Below are positions 15,809 through 61,335 of a stretch of 64,000 nucleotides of DNA, one piece after another (position 1 is the stretch's first letter; every line of letters starts with the position of its first letter). The DNA is taken from the NCBI RefSeq assembly GCF_006715055.1, contig NZ_VFMN01000001.1, positions 3,844,001 through 3,908,000 on the forward strand, in the 5' to 3' direction. The translations under genes and the position numbers were made by a program. The stretch comes from Lapillicoccus jejuensis. Its GTDB lineage: Bacteria; Actinomycetota; Actinomycetes; Actinomycetales; Dermatophilaceae. The notes beneath the pieces are model-generated. The model was not told where the DNA came from and made no database searches. It saw nothing but the letters and a program-made list of their open reading frames with translations.

Positions 15809-16681
15809 TCAGGCGGGGGTGGTGGCGACGACGAGGTGCTCGACCGGGGCGCCGTCGGAGCCGGGCCGGGCCGACAGGAGCACGGCGAGCGAGCCGTCGG
15901 GGGCGGCCTTGAGCAGCGTCGTCGACGGCAGCCGCACGGGGCGGCGGAACCACACGTGCGAGGTGCCGGCCGGGGGCACGAGGCGGCCGAGCGAGGCGAC
16001 GACCCGGCCGTAGGTGGCCATCCCGTGCGCGATGGCCGACGGGAAGCCGAGCGGCCGGGCGGTCAGGGCGTGCAGGTGGATCGGGTTGACGTCGCCCGAG
16101 ACGGCGCCGTACCGCCGCCCGGCGTCCTCGCCGAACCGCCAGCGTGCCCCGTCGGGGCGGGCGGCGACGGCCGCCACGGCCGTCGGGTCGGGCTCGTCGC
16201 CGGTGGGTGCGGTCGGGTCGCCCTCCCCCCGGGCGAGGTACGACGACACGCCGCGCCAGACCGGCTCCCCCGCCACCGACACCTCGGCGACGAGGTCGAC
16301 GAGCCGGCCGCGGCGGTGCGGGCGCAGGTTGCCCGCGCTCACGGCGAGGTCGAGCGGCTCGGTCGGGGCGAGCGGCCGTGTCCACGTGACGACGTTCTCG
16401 ACGTGGACGAGCCCGACGAGCGGGAACGGGAAGTCGCGCCGCGCCATGAGCGCCACCTGCAGCGGGAAGGCGAGGACGTGCGGGTAGGTCACGGGCAGCG
16501 CCGACCCGACAGTGAAGCCGAGCAGGTGCGCGTAGTCGACGAGGTGGTCGAGGTCGACGGCGACGCCCCGCCGCTGCGCCGTCGTCGGCGGCACCGCTCC
16601 CCCGCCGAACCGCCCGGTGACGACGGCCTTGGCGAAGAGCGCCGGCAGGTCGGGCGACCGGCCGTAGGTGAGGACGGGCAC
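15809..16681 (-). CDS. MaoC-like (R)-specific enoyl-CoA/ACP hydratase (HtdX-like)
   Basis: 290 residues in two hot-dog halves. The hydratase motif with catalytic Asp and His is visible in the second half as YGAVSGDVNPIHLH (near 195-208), followed by AIAHGMATYGRV. The protein resembles the mycobacterial 3-hydroxyacyl-thioester dehydratase HtdX, and its position directly behind a FabG4-type reductase (one base between stop and GTG) matches the mycobacterial htdX-fabG4 pair. The likely role is dehydration of 3-hydroxyacyl-CoA or -ACP in fatty-acid processing. Confidence 0.86.
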   Translation of the reverse strand: MPVLTYGRSPDLPALFAKAVVTGRFGGGAVPPTTAQRRGVAVDLDHLVDYAHLLGFTVGSALPVTYPHVLAFPLQVALMARRDFPFPLVGLVHVENVVTWTRPLAPTEPLDLAVSAGNLRPHRRGRLVDLVAEVSVAGEPVWRGVSSYLARGEGDPTAPTGDEPDPTAVAAVAARPDGARWRFGEDAGRRYGAVSGDVNPIHLHALTARPLGFPSAIAHGMATYGRVVASLGRLVPPAGTSHVWFRRPVRLPSTTLLKAAPDGSLAVLLSARPGSDGAPVEHLVVATTPA

Positions 16682-16682
16682 C

Positions 16683-18035
16683 TCAGGCCCCGAGCATGCT
16701 CTGGCCGCAGACCCGCACGACCTGGCCGGTGACCCCGGCGCTGGCGTCCTGGGCGAACCACGCGATCGTCTCGGCGACGTCGACCGGCAGGCCGCCCTGC
16801 GCGAGCGAGTTGATCCGGCGACCCATCTCGCGGGTGGCCAGCGGGATCCGGCCCGTCATTTCGGTCTCGATGAAGCCGGGGGCGACCGCGTTGACGGTGA
16901 TGCCGCGGGCCCGCAGGTCCTCGTCGCGGCCGAGCGCGTGGACGGCCCCGATGAGGCCGGCCTTGGACGCGGCGTAGTTGCTCTGGCCGCGGTTGCCGGC
17001 GATGCCGGACATCGAGGACAGGACGACGACGTGCCCGCCGTCGGAGAGCGCGCCGGGGGCGAGGATCGCCTCGTTCATCCGCAGCACGGAGAGCAGGTTG
17101 ACGTCGAGCACCTGCTGCCAGCGGGCGGCGTCGGTGTTGGCGAGCAGCTTGTCGCGGGTGATCCCGGCGTTGTGCACGACGACGTCGAGGCTGCCGTGGC
17201 GGGTCCGGGCGTGCTCGACGATCCGCGCGCCCGCGTCGGGGCTCGTCACGTCGAGCTGCAGCGCCGAGCCGCCGTTGCGGTTGGCCACCACGGCGAGGGC
17301 GTCGCCGGCGGCGGGGACGTCGAGGCAGACGACCGTCGCGCCGTCGCGGGTGAGGGTGTCGGCGATCGACGCACCGATGCCGCGCGCCGCCCCGGTGACG
17401 ACCGCGACCTTTCCGGCCAGCGGGGCCACCCAGCTCTGGGGCGTACGGCGCCCTGCACCCGCGGGCCCGACGGTGACCACCTGCCCGTCGACGTAGGCCG
17501 AGCGCCCGGAGAGGAAGAACCGGACCGTGGACTCGATCTCCTCCTCGCCGCCGTCCTCGACGAGGACGAGGTTGGCGGTCGCTCCGGCCCGCAGCTCCTT
17601 GCCGATCGAGCGGACGACGCCCTCGAGCGCGCGCCGGGCGGCGGCGAGGACCGGGTCGGCGCCGGCCTGCTCGGGCGAGGCACCGAGGACGAGGACCCGG
17701 CCGGACGGGGCGAGCCGCTTGAGCGCCGGGCCGACCAGCGCCCGCAGCGCCTCCAGGTCGGCCGGGCCGGTCATCGCGCTGAGGTCGGCGACGACGGCGG
17801 CGACCCGTCCGTCGGTCGGCGGCTCGGTCGCGGTCGCGATGCCCTCGGCGTCGAGGACCGCGCGGACCCTCTTGGCCAGCGGGGCGTCGCCGTACCCCCC
17901 GAGCAGCACGCTGCCCTCGAGCAGCGCCCCTCCGGGGGTGTAGCGGCGCAGCCGCACCGGCCGCGGGATCCCCAGCCGGCTCGCGACCTGCTTGCCGAGA
18001 GGGCTGTTGACGAACTGGGAGTACGTGTCGGTCAT
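16683..18035 (-). CDS. fabG4: FabG4-type 3-oxoacyl-(ACP/CoA) reductase, high-molecular-weight SDR
   Basis: 450 residues, nearly twice a normal FabG. The first ~205 residues form an extra Rossmann-like domain without the SDR catalytic residues; the second half is a complete SDR: VVTGAARGIGASIAD (cofactor loop, near 213), NAGITRD, and SSMSGIAG with YAASK (catalytic Tyr and Lys near 350). This two-domain form is typical of actinobacterial FabG4, which uses NADH and acts on long acyl-CoA. It lies between the fadA-type thiolase and the MaoC hydratase, the order known in mycobacteria. Confidence 0.9.
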   Translation of the reverse strand: MTDTYSQFVNSPLGKQVASRLGIPRPVRLRRYTPGGALLEGSVLLGGYGDAPLAKRVRAVLDAEGIATATEPPTDGRVAAVVADLSAMTGPADLEALRALVGPALKRLAPSGRVLVLGASPEQAGADPVLAAARRALEGVVRSIGKELRAGATANLVLVEDGGEEEIESTVRFFLSGRSAYVDGQVVTVGPAGAGRRTPQSWVAPLAGKVAVVTGAARGIGASIADTLTRDGATVVCLDVPAAGDALAVVANRNGGSALQLDVTSPDAGARIVEHARTRHGSLDVVVHNAGITRDKLLANTDAARWQQVLDVNLLSVLRMNEAILAPGALSDGGHVVVLSSMSGIAGNRGQSNYAASKAGLIGAVHALGRDEDLRARGITVNAVAPGFIETEMTGRIPLATREMGRRINSLAQGGLPVDVAETIAWFAQDASAGVTGQVVRVCGQSMLGA

Positions 18036-18105: not shown

Positions 18106-19410
18106 TCAGGCGCCCTCGAGGATCGCGACGACGCCCTGCCCGCCGGCGGCGCAGATGGAGATCAGGCCGCGCGAGCCGGGGCCCTTCTCGTGCAGCAGCT
18201 TCGACAGCGTCGCGACGATGCGGCCACCCGTCGCGGCGAACGGGTGCCCCGCGGCGAGGGACGAGCCGTTGACGTTGAGCCGGCTGCGGTCGATCGACCC
18301 GAGCGGCGCGTCGAGACCGAGGCGGCCCGCGCAGAAGTCCGGGTCCTCCCACGCCGCGAGGGTCGAGAGGACGGTCGCCGCGAAGGCCTCGTGGATCTCG
18401 TAGTAGTCGAAGTCCTGCAGGGTCAGGCCCTGGCGCGCGAGCAGGCGGGGGACGGCGTACGCCGGCGCCATGAGCAGCCCCTCGCCACCGTGCACGTAGT
18501 CGACGGCCGCGGTCTCGGCGTCGACGAGGTGCGCGAGGACGGGCAGCTGGTGCTCGGCGGCCCACTCGTCGCTGCCAAGCAGGACGACCGAGGCGCCGTC
18601 GGTGAGCGGCGTCGAGTTGCCGGCCGTCATCGTCGCGCCCTCACCCTTGCCGAAGACGGGTGACAGCGTGGCCAGCTTCTCCGTGCTGGAGTCGGGGCGC
18701 AGGTTGTCGTCGCGGGTCAGGCCGAGGTAGGGCGTGACGAGGTCGTCGAAGAACCCGCGGTCATAGGCGGCCGAGAGGTGACGGTGGCTGGCGGCCGCGA
18801 GCTCGTCCTGGTCCTCGCGGGTGATCCCCCACTCGCGCGCGGTGAGCGCCATGTGCTCGCCCATCGACAGCCCCGTGCGCGGCTCGACGTTGCGCGGGAC
18901 CTCGGGCACGACCTGGCCCGGGCGCAGGGCCGCGAGGGCGCGCACCTTGCCCGACGTCGTACGGGCGCTGTTGACGGCGAGCAGCGCCCGACGCAGGTCC
19001 TCGTTGACGGCGATCGGCGCGTCGCTGGCGGTGTCGACGCCACCCGCCGCGGCCGACTCGATCTGGCCGAGGGCGATCTTGTTCGCGGTGAGGACGACCG
19101 TCTCGAGGCCCGTGCCGCAGGCCTGCTGGACGTCGTACGCCGGGGTGGCCGGGTCGAGGGCGGAGCCGAGGACGCTCTCGCGGGTGAGGTTGAAGTCGCG
19201 CGAGTGCTTGAGGACCGCGCCGGCGGCGACCTCCCCCAGTCGCTCCCCGGCGATACCGAACCGGGCCACGAGCCCGTCGAGCGCGGCGGTGAGCATGTCC
19301 TGGTTGGAGGCCCTGGCGTAGCGGCCGTTGGCCCGGGCGAAGGGGATCCGGTTGCCGCCGAGGACCGCGGCGCGGCGGGGGGCGGGACGACGGGGGCGGG
19401 AGGCGGCCAC
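18106..19410 (-). CDS. fadA: Acetyl-CoA acyltransferase (thiolase, FadA2/FadI type)
   Basis: 434 residues. The thiolase triad is visible: nucleophile in VQQACGTGLE (Cys98), His in YYEIHEAFAATV (near 341) and the second Cys in SICAAGGQG (near 420). It catalyses thiolysis of 3-oxoacyl-CoA or the reverse condensation. The GTG at 19410 is chosen because an AGGAG site lies seven bases before it and the protein then starts close to family consensus (VLGGNRIPFARANG). It is divergent from a TetR gene across a perfect palindrome that covers its -10 box. Confidence 0.93.
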   Translation of the reverse strand: MAASRPRRPAPRRAAVLGGNRIPFARANGRYARASNQDMLTAALDGLVARFGIAGERLGEVAAGAVLKHSRDFNLTRESVLGSALDPATPAYDVQQACGTGLETVVLTANKIALGQIESAAAGGVDTASDAPIAVNEDLRRALLAVNSARTTSGKVRALAALRPGQVVPEVPRNVEPRTGLSMGEHMALTAREWGITREDQDELAAASHRHLSAAYDRGFFDDLVTPYLGLTRDDNLRPDSSTEKLATLSPVFGKGEGATMTAGNSTPLTDGASVVLLGSDEWAAEHQLPVLAHLVDAETAAVDYVHGGEGLLMAPAYAVPRLLARQGLTLQDFDYYEIHEAFAATVLSTLAAWEDPDFCAGRLGLDAPLGSIDRSRLNVNGSSLAAGHPFAATGGRIVATLSKLLHEKGPGSRGLISICAAGGQGVVAILEGA

Positions 19411-19455
19411 GGGGGTCTCCTGGGGGTCGGGACGGGCTGGACGAGTGCCTGGTAC

Positions 19456-19492
19456 GGACAGTAGCAGGTACGGCGAGTACCTGCTACTGTCC
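19456..19492. promoter_or_regulatory. Perfect 16-bp inverted repeat, TetR operator, with divergent -10 boxes
   Basis: GGACAGTAGCAGGTAC (19456-19471) is an exact reverse complement of 19477-19492, with five bases between. Each arm contains a TACTGT -10 box facing outward: the right one ends seven bases before the tetR ATG (leaderless), the left one serves fadA with a leader of about 40 bases. A dimeric TetR protein bound here would block both promoters at once. Confidence 0.85.
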
Positions 19493-19497
19493 AAAGC

Positions 19498-20181
19498 ATG
19501 TCCTCCGCCCCGGCTCCCGACGGCCGCAGCACCCGGTGGGCGCAGCACCGTCTCGAGCGGCGCCGCGAGCTCGTCGAGGCCACGCTGCGGGCCATCCGCC
19601 GGCACGGCGCCGGCGTGGGGATGGACGAGGTCGCCCTCGCCGCCGGGACGAGCAAGACCGTCGTCTACCGGCACTTCACCGACAAGGCCGGGCTCTACCA
19701 CGCGGTCGCCGAGCGGGTGGACGAGATCATCCTGCGCGACCTCGGCCGTGCGCTCGGGGAGGCCGGGGTGCCGCTCACCGACCTCGCCGCCGACCCGCGC
19801 CACCTCGTCGCCACCGCCGTCGACGCCTACCTCTCGCTCGTCGAGAAGGACCCCGAGGTCTACCGGTTCATCGTCGCCGCACCGCTGCTCGAGCGCGGCA
19901 CCGGGAGCGGCGCCGGCGCCGACCCCGCCGCGTCGGTGAGCGACCACGTCGCCGAGCAGCTGGCCGCCCTCTTCGCCGAGGCCCTCGCCGCGACCGGGTC
20001 GGACACCGCCGCCGCGCCCGTCTGGGCCCGCGGCGTCGTCGGCATGGTCCGCGCCGCCGCCGACGCCTGGCTCGCCGGGCAGCCCGGCTTCGCCGGGCTG
20101 CCCCGCCGGGCGCTGACCGAGCACCTCGCCACCCTCGCGTGGACCGGCCTCGCCACGACGTGGCCGGCCGACGCCCGCTGA
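19498..20181 (+). CDS. TetR-family regulator of the fatty-acid genes
   Basis: 227 residues. The N-terminal helix-turn-helix is typical of TetR: MDEVALAAGTSKTVVYRHFTDK (about 42-63). The ligand domain is Ala-rich and not informative. The ATG follows directly after the 37-base palindrome that also covers the fadA promoter, so autoregulation and control of fadA are very likely. The acyl-CoA dehydrogenase gene follows 41 bases later on the same strand. Acyl-CoA as effector is an inference from neighbours, by analogy with other TetR regulators of fatty-acid genes. Confidence 0.9.
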   Translation: MSSAPAPDGRSTRWAQHRLERRRELVEATLRAIRRHGAGVGMDEVALAAGTSKTVVYRHFTDKAGLYHAVAERVDEIILRDLGRALGEAGVPLTDLAADPRHLVATAVDAYLSLVEKDPEVYRFIVAAPLLERGTGSGAGADPAASVSDHVAEQLAALFAEALAATGSDTAAAPVWARGVVGMVRAAADAWLAGQPGFAGLPRRALTEHLATLAWTGLATTWPADAR

Positions 20182-24088: not shown

Positions 24089-25065
24089 CGACCGACGTGG
24101 CCAGCGCCGACCTCCCCGCCGCGACGGGGCCCGCCGGTCCCGTCGCGGCGGGGGGCGGTCCGTCCCCCGCCCGCCCGCGCCCGTCGCGGGTGGCCGCCCT
24201 CGGGCACCGACCGCTCTGGCTCATGGGGCCGACGGTGGTGCTGCTGGTCCTCGTCATCGTCGTGCCCTTCCTGCTCGGGATCTGGATCAGCGCGACCGAC
24301 CTCGACCAGTACTCGCTGCGCACGTTCCTCCAGGCCCCCGTCGTCGGGCTGGCCAACTACGTCGAGGCGCTGCAGACCTCGGGCCTGCTGCACTCGATCT
24401 GGGTGAGCTTCGCCTTCGCGATGCTGACGACGATCGTCTGCGCCCCCGTCGGCGTGCTGGCCGCCCTCGCGCTCAACACCGCCTTCCGCGGCCGCGGCCT
24501 GGTGCGCTCGGCCTTCCTCATCCCCTACGTCCTGCCGTCCTTCGTCACCGCGACGGTCTGGCGGTTCATCCTGCGACCCGACGGCGCCTTCAACGAGGTG
24601 CTCGCCTGGTTCGGCGTCGACGGAGGCCAGTGGCTCATCGGCGACAAGGCCTTCTGGGCCCTGGTCCTCGTCGACATCTGGGCGGCCTGGCCGTTCGTCT
24701 ACATGATGGCCATGGCCGGCCTGCAGGCCATCCCCGACGAGCTCTACGAGTCCGCCGACATGGACGGCGCGTCCTGGTGGCAGAAGGTGCGGTACGTCGC
24801 CCTGCCGCAGATCCGCGGGCAGCTCCTCCTCGGGCTGCTGCTGTCGACGCTCGCGCACTTCAACAACTTCACGCTGCCGTTCGTGCTCTTCGGGACCCCC
24901 GCGCCGGACTCGGTCCTCACCCTGCCGGTGAACATCTACCAGACCTCGTTCCAGACCTTCCGCTTCGGCCTGGGCAGCGCGATGTCGGTGCTCTCGCTCC
25001 TGCTCATGCTCATCCCCGCCGTCATCTACCTGCGCGCGTCGCGGCTCACCACCGCCGCCGACTGA
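24085..25065 (+). CDS. ABC sugar transporter permease (MalF/UgpA type)
   Basis: 326 residues with six predicted membrane helices after a cytoplasmic Pro/Ala-rich start. The EAA loop that contacts the ATPase is visible as ELYESADMDGASWWQKVRYVALP (split here: ELYESADMDGAS, then WWQKVRYVALP) near residue 220. The GTG overlaps the binding-protein stop (GTGA). It pairs with the next gene to form the membrane channel. No ATP-binding subunit is encoded in the operon, so a shared MsmX/MsiK-type ATPase elsewhere is expected. Confidence 0.92.
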   Translation: MTTDVASADLPAATGPAGPVAAGGGPSPARPRPSRVAALGHRPLWLMGPTVVLLVLVIVVPFLLGIWISATDLDQYSLRTFLQAPVVGLANYVEALQTSGLLHSIWVSFAFAMLTTIVCAPVGVLAALALNTAFRGRGLVRSAFLIPYVLPSFVTATVWRFILRPDGAFNEVLAWFGVDGGQWLIGDKAFWALVLVDIWAAWPFVYMMAMAGLQAIPDELYESADMDGASWWQKVRYVALPQIRGQLLLGLLLSTLAHFNNFTLPFVLFGTPAPDSVLTLPVNIYQTSFQTFRFGLGSAMSVLSLLLMLIPAVIYLRASRLTTAAD

Positions 25066-49531: not shown

Positions 49532-49627
49532 CTGACGCGAGCCCGAGGCAGCCATCAGCTGACCTCTCCACGCGACCGGAGCCGCCCGCACCCCGCACGC
49601 CGCCAGCCCCTGGACGCTCCACGCGAC

Positions 49628-49662
49628 GGCGCCCCGCCCGGGGTGGTCCCGGGCGGGGCGCC
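49628..49662 (-). terminator. Strong terminator of the molybdenum hydroxylase operon
   Basis: Perfect 15-base arms (49628-49642 and 49648-49662) with the loop GTGGT, 21 bases past the coxG stop. All pairs but none of the tail are strong; there is no U-tract. Confidence 0.75.
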
Positions 49663-49682
49663 GTACGGCGTGCTGGGTGCGG

Positions 49683-59863: not shown

Positions 59864-59894
59864 TGACGGTGTGCGCGTTCCGCGCACACCGTCA
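59864..59894 (-). terminator. Hairpin after the first S53 peptidase gene
   Basis: Perfect 14-base arms, TGACGGTGTGCGCG (59864-59877) and 59881-59894, with the loop TTC, 21 bases past the peptidase stop. No U-tract. Confidence 0.7.
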
Positions 59895-61302: not shown

Positions 61303-61335
61303 ACGGCGCCCTGGGCCAGTGGCCCAGGGCGCCGT
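61303..61335 (-). terminator. Hairpin between the two S53 genes
   Basis: Perfect 15-base arms (61303-61317 and 61321-61335) with the loop AGT, 33 bases past the stop of the second peptidase gene. It separates the transcripts of the tandem paralogues. Confidence 0.7.

Follow-up and report, generated by a model that had tools for sequence, protein, structure and literature searches.

Three short palindromes spanning divergent promoters as a candidate operator of a FasR-like TetR-family regulator beside beta-oxidation genes in Lapillicoccus jejuensis

The stretch of DNA analyzed here (64,000 nucleotides; hereafter the window) is part of the 4.58 Mb, single-contig genome of Lapillicoccus jejuensis (the host genome). 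It carries a gene for a TetR-family regulator (tetR) that diverges from a thiolase gene and is followed, 41 bp behind, by an acyl-CoA oxidase gene, which is the order that a sequence-only reading of this DNA had proposed. The genes and the features between them are as follows (window positions):

15809..16681, minus strand: MaoC-domain protein, probably the third gene of the thiolase operon
16683..18035, minus strand: 3-oxoacyl-ACP reductase, PRK08261 type, probably the second gene of the thiolase operon
18106..19410, minus strand: thiolase (acetyl-CoA C-acetyltransferase, NF006740/PRK09268; called fadA in the sequence-only reading), GTG start
19417..19421, minus strand: AGGAG ribosome-binding site of the thiolase gene, 6 nt before the GTG, read from the sequence
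19445..19455, no strand: candidate operator unit U1, GTGCCTGGTAC, one mismatch to GTAnCnGnTAC
19456..19492, no strand: the reported perfect inverted repeat, made up of U2, U3 and 5-bp flanks
19458..19466, minus strand: predicted extended -10 element of the thiolase operon, TGC-TACTGT; TAnnnT in 77/94 aligned regions
19461..19471, no strand: candidate operator unit U2, GTAGCAGGTAC, perfect match to GTAnCnGnTAC
19477..19487, no strand: candidate operator unit U3, GTACCTGCTAC, perfect match to GTAnCnGnTAC
19482..19490, plus strand: predicted extended -10 element of tetR, TGC-TACTGT; TAnnnT in 94/94 aligned regions
19498..20181, plus strand: TetR-family regulator, FasR-like (TetR_N + TetR_C_32), 227 aa
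20223..22184, plus strand: acyl-CoA oxidase

The reductase is presumably FabG4-like, and tetR and the oxidase gene would probably be co-transcribed. Among the 114 upstream regions of tetR homologs that we compared (see below), 113 had a divergent thiolase gene and 71 an acyl-CoA oxidase match downstream of tetR. The 43 regions lacking an oxidase match include 37 that offer short stretches only; at L031, L047, L048, L052, L055, and L019, at least about 1.5 kb behind tetR held no acyl-CoA oxidase match.

Positions 19456-19492 read GGACAGTAGCAGGTAC-GGCGA-GTACCTGCTACTGTCC, that is, two error-free 16-bp arms around a 5-nt spacer, so the letters bear out the perfect repeat covering two divergent -10 boxes that had been described from the sequence. 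In a repeat search it came out as part of a longer 79% repeat (19443-19471 / 19477-19505). The longest perfect arm in each of 40 random windows (dinucleotide model, loop ≤20) was 10-15 bp and never 16. The real 64-kb window has further perfect inverted repeats of 17 and 16 bp elsewhere, and because of these the length of the repeat alone does not prove a function; conservation, as judged by sequence comparison, does more than arm length to argue for one. Perfect inverted repeats elsewhere in the window lie at 49626-49664 (arms 17 bp), 61303-61335 (16 bp), 24114-24153 (15 bp), and 59864-59894 (14 bp), and by eye they are G+C-rich.

A regulator match at E ≤ 1e-30 was found in 149/186 genomes of the host family. 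We read 114 upstream regions, of which 109 belong to that family (the host genome among them) and 5 to other genera; of the 149 genomes of the family that had a match, 40 are outside this sample (not taken in, or upstream region cut off). Loci L010-L014 (which repeat other loci), further copies of the host's own locus, L049 (where the contig begins with the gene), and the more remote L020-L030 were excluded before alignment. Comparison of the upstream regions pointed to three tandem 11-bp palindromes, GTAnCnGnTAC, as the conserved object, with 5 bp between them, a 16-bp pitch, and an overall extent of 43 bp (U1, U2, and U3 in the list above). When scored over their 18 GTA/TAC positions, 112/114 regions reached 12-18 and 94/114 reached at least 15, in comparison to a best score of 11 in 570 windows of the same loci, a control that sets all 114 regions against those windows and is free of selection. 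Column counts refer to the 94 rows scoring ≥15/18; 20 rows in which a unit was missing, weak, or displaced were dropped (L051, L054, L055, L056, L057, L058, L063, L064, L065, L075, L078, L080, L083, L112, L125, L136, L016, L017, L018, and L019). In one genus (L051, L054, L056-L058, L063-L065, and L075) U1 and U2 remain and U3 is degenerate, displaced, by eye, by one extra spacer base. At L132, in one genome, the U2-U3 part together with the tetR-side -10 box occurs twice in tandem upstream of tetR, and L117 has a further partial operator copy upstream.

Within the 94 rows, U2 was perfect in 78 and had one mismatch in 16, U3 had 0 or 1 mismatch in 91, and U1 had 0 mismatches in 11, 1 in 30, and 2 in 50; these GTA/TAC counts are partly built in because the choice of rows favors those positions, and they are not independent of each other because the orthologs are related. 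The inner bases, which played no part in the choice of rows, were kept as well (U2: C21 in 80/94 and G23 in 94/94; U3: C37 in 84/94 and G39 in 93/94). Palindromic units are conserved beside the tetR gene. U1 is the weakest of the three overall, given its 2 mismatches in 50/94 regions. It occupies the same place in relatives, and in the host genome it matches 7/8 consensus positions (chance of ≤1 mismatch at a preset place, 1.8e-4), the mismatch falling in the outer half-site (GTG). No perfect GTAnCnGnTAC unit other than U2 and U3 occurs in the 64-kb window. The mirror symmetry of the site fared differently from the row of units. U3 was the exact inverse of U2 in 30/94 aligned regions, perfect arms of ≥14 bp occurred in 26/94 cleanly aligned regions, and a perfect arm of 0-5 bp was left in 61/94; in other genera U3 reads GTTTCGGATAC, GTAGCGGGTAC, or GTACTAGGTAC, none of which is the inverse of U2. 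The design had been called unusually symmetrical, and here the symmetry is indeed perfect, but the exact-inverse and ≥14-bp counts mark it as limited to certain lineages and not as a conserved feature. Of the two, the row of units varies less across the aligned sequences.

Both arms of the repeat contain the outward TACTGT hexamer that the sequence-only reading had named as a -10 box, at 19485-19490 on the plus strand and at 19463-19458 on the minus strand, each preceded by TGC. The tetR -10 box begins with the outer TAC of U3, and the thiolase -10 box, on the other strand, begins at the outer GTA of U2. On the tetR side, TAnnnT was present in 94/94 regions; its TA lies inside U3 and its last T outside the unit, and this T was unused in the choice of rows and is invariant. 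The predicted start of the tetR transcript is at ~19497 and the ATG at 19498, 7 nt after the -10 box. The first in-frame start codon of tetR stood 6-9 nt past the -10 box in 91/94 regions, and an in-frame start with TAnnnT 6-9 nt ahead of it was found in 112/114 regions vs. 1/305 start-like codons inside genes. This near-leaderless spacing supports, at the level of sequence, a tetR transcript whose 5' end coincides with the start codon or precedes it by 1 nt (leaderless or nearly so), as had been predicted for the ATG.

On the thiolase side, the predicted start is at ~19451, which U1 overlaps, leaving a 5' leader of ~41 nt. TAnnnT at U2 was present in 77/94 regions, and in 16 of the 17 regions without this box a TAnnnT lay farther out by exactly one unit (16 bp), on the outer edge of U1. 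Such a U1-edge TAnnnT occurred in only 8 of the 77 regions with the U2 box (Fisher p 2.5e-11; a value uncorrected for relatedness, which overstates the association because seven of the 17 exceptions come from one genus, the rest being from nine others). The thiolase promoter seems to have moved by one unit in several genera. In the host genome the edge of U1 offers no TAnnnT, which makes the U2 box the thiolase -10 candidate here. Both of the divergent -10 boxes claimed earlier overlap operator units and are conserved. TG precedes the -10 box in 67/94 regions on the tetR side and in 73/94 on the thiolase side, and the variable base of the two boxes agrees in 77/94 regions vs. 42 expected from column make-up (relatedness uncorrected). 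A promoter scan of 19380-19560 gave no TTGACA/TATAAT-type match; this fits extended -10 promoters, for which it is expected, yet lends them no support either. The two predicted starts are back to back, ~46 bp apart.

The regulator matched PF00440 (TetR helix-turn-helix) with 39.9 bits (cut-off 24) and PF19344 (TetR_C_32) with 69.7 bits (cut-off 27), and its structure model (mean pLDDT 91.7) gave matches to the TetR-family fold. Ahead of the helix-turn-helix, residues D8, R10, R13, W14, H17, and R18 are common to all 53 aligned homologs and are candidates for an arm that would reach into the minor groove. The corresponding motif, D-G-R-x-x-R-W-x-x-H-R, is encoded at 19519-19551 and is invariant in the 53 homologs, its G nearly so. 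With a family profile, FasR scored E 1.1e-30 over residues 23-219 and the next protein, Rv0078, 4.3e-15, which makes FasR the best sequence relative among solved structures. Foldseek also placed FasR first, with DesT-palmitoyl-CoA, KstR, and FadR-stearoyl-CoA lower. In the VIA-align comparison, FasR ranked 12 (Z 15.4) behind Rv0078 (16.7), EthR2 (16.1), and FadR (15.9), and since the top scores are this close together the fold by itself does not set FasR apart. We judged it unlikely that the regulator is FasR itself or its ortholog, because it scored 70.5 bits against NF053731 (FasR), for which the curated cut-off is 330, and another gene of the host genome scored 226.8 bits. This other gene, L006 (G000:C1:415695-416252), is likewise below 330 and is the candidate FasR counterpart of the host genome; its neighbors, by their open reading frames, presumably resemble MoeB and a small DUF3107-type protein. 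The regulator is a FasR-like TetR protein, apparently a paralog of FasR.

An earlier suggestion was that a genome-wide search for the site would define the regulon. With the two-unit pattern, the search recovered the tetR locus and found no second site at ≤3 mismatches in the 4.58-Mb genome. At this setting the number of matches was the same for the pattern and for the reversed control (2 forward, 2 reverse), so it is the uniqueness of the site that counts and not an excess. The reversed control had no match in the host genome at ≤1 mismatch. A wider regulon in the host genome was thus rejected, since patterns with up to 3 mismatches led to the tetR locus only. Across the host family, the two-unit pattern at ≤1 mismatch was found in 132/184 genomes and the reversed control in 2. 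Among the matches listed, 10 arrays from six genera, picked by eye, were away from tetR, and each of them preceded a pair of adjacent acyl-CoA dehydrogenase genes. In the host genome this gene pair has no array, and for this reason the regulon there may consist of the tetR locus only.

Outside the host family, the loci of Kineococcus and Actinomycetospora, and L164, L166, L168, L171, L177, and L186, keep the thiolase partner and recognizable, partly degenerate units. At the distant L172, L173, and L180, GTAnCnGnTAC-like units of varying quality are found where the regulator gene diverges from AurF-type oxygenase genes, and at L175 such units accompany a divergent gene of the ferredoxin-reductase type, neighbors that suggest a change of target. 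In another family (f10), nine loci had neither an array (best pair, 6-8/16 mismatches) nor a thiolase neighbor, and in two of them that were tested the divergent gene was a DUF445 gene.

Taking together the units and their spacing, the conservation of the -10 boxes, the near-leaderless spacing, the gene order, and the second target in relatives, all read from sequence, we consider it likely that the array is the operator of the adjacent TetR protein, where dimers on the three palindromes would shut both divergent promoters and long-chain acyl-CoA would release them. The distance from GTA to TAC is the one that the recognition helices of TetR proteins span, and the natural reading is therefore one regulator dimer per 11-bp unit, with three dimers on the row; as a pitch of 16 bp is ~1.5 turns, neighboring dimers would sit on roughly opposite faces of the DNA. 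A dimer bound at U3 would hide the tetR -10 box, one at U2 would hide the thiolase -10 box, and one at U1 would cover the thiolase start. Because unit edges supply the first three bases of both -10 boxes, the thiolase-fabG-maoC genes and the tetR-acyl-CoA oxidase genes would be shut at once, and the regulator would repress its own gene. We also infer that RNA polymerase at one promoter would exclude polymerase at the other, since the two extended -10 promoters are back to back and close. Long-chain acyl-CoA would probably release the regulator and so turn beta-oxidation on; we propose this class of ligand because FasR, the closest characterized relative by sequence, releases DNA likewise.

The sequence-only reading had instead placed one bound TetR dimer pair on the perfect palindrome. 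Much as with QacR, two dimers would occupy one large palindrome, and U1 would then be unused in the host genome. The perfect U2 and U3, the perfect 37-bp dyad that they form here, and the mismatch in U1 would all suit such a mode, as would the agreement of the variable -10 base (77/94 vs. 42 expected), which looks as if the arms matter pairwise. However, only 26/94 regions have perfect arms of ≥14 bp, U3 of other genera is not the inverse of U2, and U1 is kept at its place in relatives and at 7/8 positions here (p 1.8e-4). Since three short palindromes are conserved, including a U1 that lies outside 19456-19492, three dimers are a better model than one dimer pair, which is probably not what the site accommodates, and we regard this alternative as rather unlikely.

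More doubtful again is the idea that the regulator activates one direction, as FasR does for fas, and represses only itself. It draws on FasR, the closest characterized relative, being an activator, but the units overlap both -10 boxes, a position at which a bound dimer would be expected to block polymerase, and in 16/17 cases without the U2 thiolase -10 box the TAnnnT found at U1 is still within the operator; we therefore hold activation to be improbable. That the inverted repeat works as an RNA or DNA hairpin, or as a terminator, and not as an operator is scarcely credible. Its perfect arms and short loop could fold, but 19380-19560 contains no terminator-like site, the predicted transcripts start outside the center of the dyad on both sides, and relatives do not preserve the mirror pairing (61/94 regions have a perfect arm of 0-5 bp). 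Lacking a terminator-like site and conserved pairing, this reading was rejected.

The candidate operator and its regulator have points of likeness with known systems. The passages on FasR (Rv3208, Mycobacterium tuberculosis) in PMC7382501 and PMC7652896 describe a regulator that long-chain acyl-CoA releases from DNA, and in PMC7382501 it binds three inverted repeats and its binding is disrupted by acyl-CoA of ≥C16, which fills a tunnel. The TetR fold and a target promoter with three inverted repeats (here three units in 43 bp) are shared with FasR as those passages present it. Unlike the regulator studied here, with its beta-oxidation neighbors and units overlapping the -10 boxes, FasR is described there as activating fatty-acid synthesis (fas-acpS), and the DNA of the FasR crystal has no GTAnCnGnTAC unit (the best has 3/8 mismatches). 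Two other TetR-fold regulators of fatty-acid genes with crystal structures, FadR of Bacillus (with stearoyl-CoA) and DesT of Pseudomonas (with palmitoyl-CoA), showed 12-15% and 25-26% identity, respectively, in model alignments. The mycobacterial FdmR, which the passages on it in PMC9262360, PMC10501769, and PMC9301340 describe as a TetR-family repressor acting on fatty-acid catabolism genes, fadE5 among them, may be a functional counterpart of the host regulator, a likeness that follows the description in citing papers. In TetR/TetA, as outlined in the relevant part of PMC3511530, the regulator gene diverges from its target and two operators repress both promoters. The regulator gene here likewise diverges from its predicted target, but the 11-bp units, their row of three at a 16-bp pitch, and outer edges that are part of the -10 boxes set it apart.

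Acyl-CoA-responsive regulation of fatty-acid genes by TetR-family proteins is an already known kind of system, and the modular operator may be a variant of it. The literature matches listed, in which FdmR is represented through citing papers, gave no account of this operator or of this TetR subfamily. Tentatively, and as a possibility to which we give less than even weight, the array may define a TetR subfamily of Actinomycetes with a modular, ruler-like operator, in which similar 11-bp dimer sites recur every 16 bp and each outer edge can lend its TAC to a TAnnnT -10 box. As each unit would carry a latent -10 box, a promoter could shift by exactly one unit without leaving repression. If this is true, dimers side by side on alternating faces could make the response to acyl-CoA graded or cooperative.

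The likely operator provides a testable DNA code and a candidate beta-oxidation regulon for a large family of actinobacteria and for some relatives beyond it. It sets the FasR type of sensing, which serves fatty-acid synthesis, beside a paralog that apparently governs fatty-acid breakdown, with a metabolic output that would be opposite to that of FasR in that acyl-CoA would turn breakdown on. With -10 boxes in the edges of its likely operator, the locus also serves as an example of how promoters could change position and yet stay under the control of their repressor.
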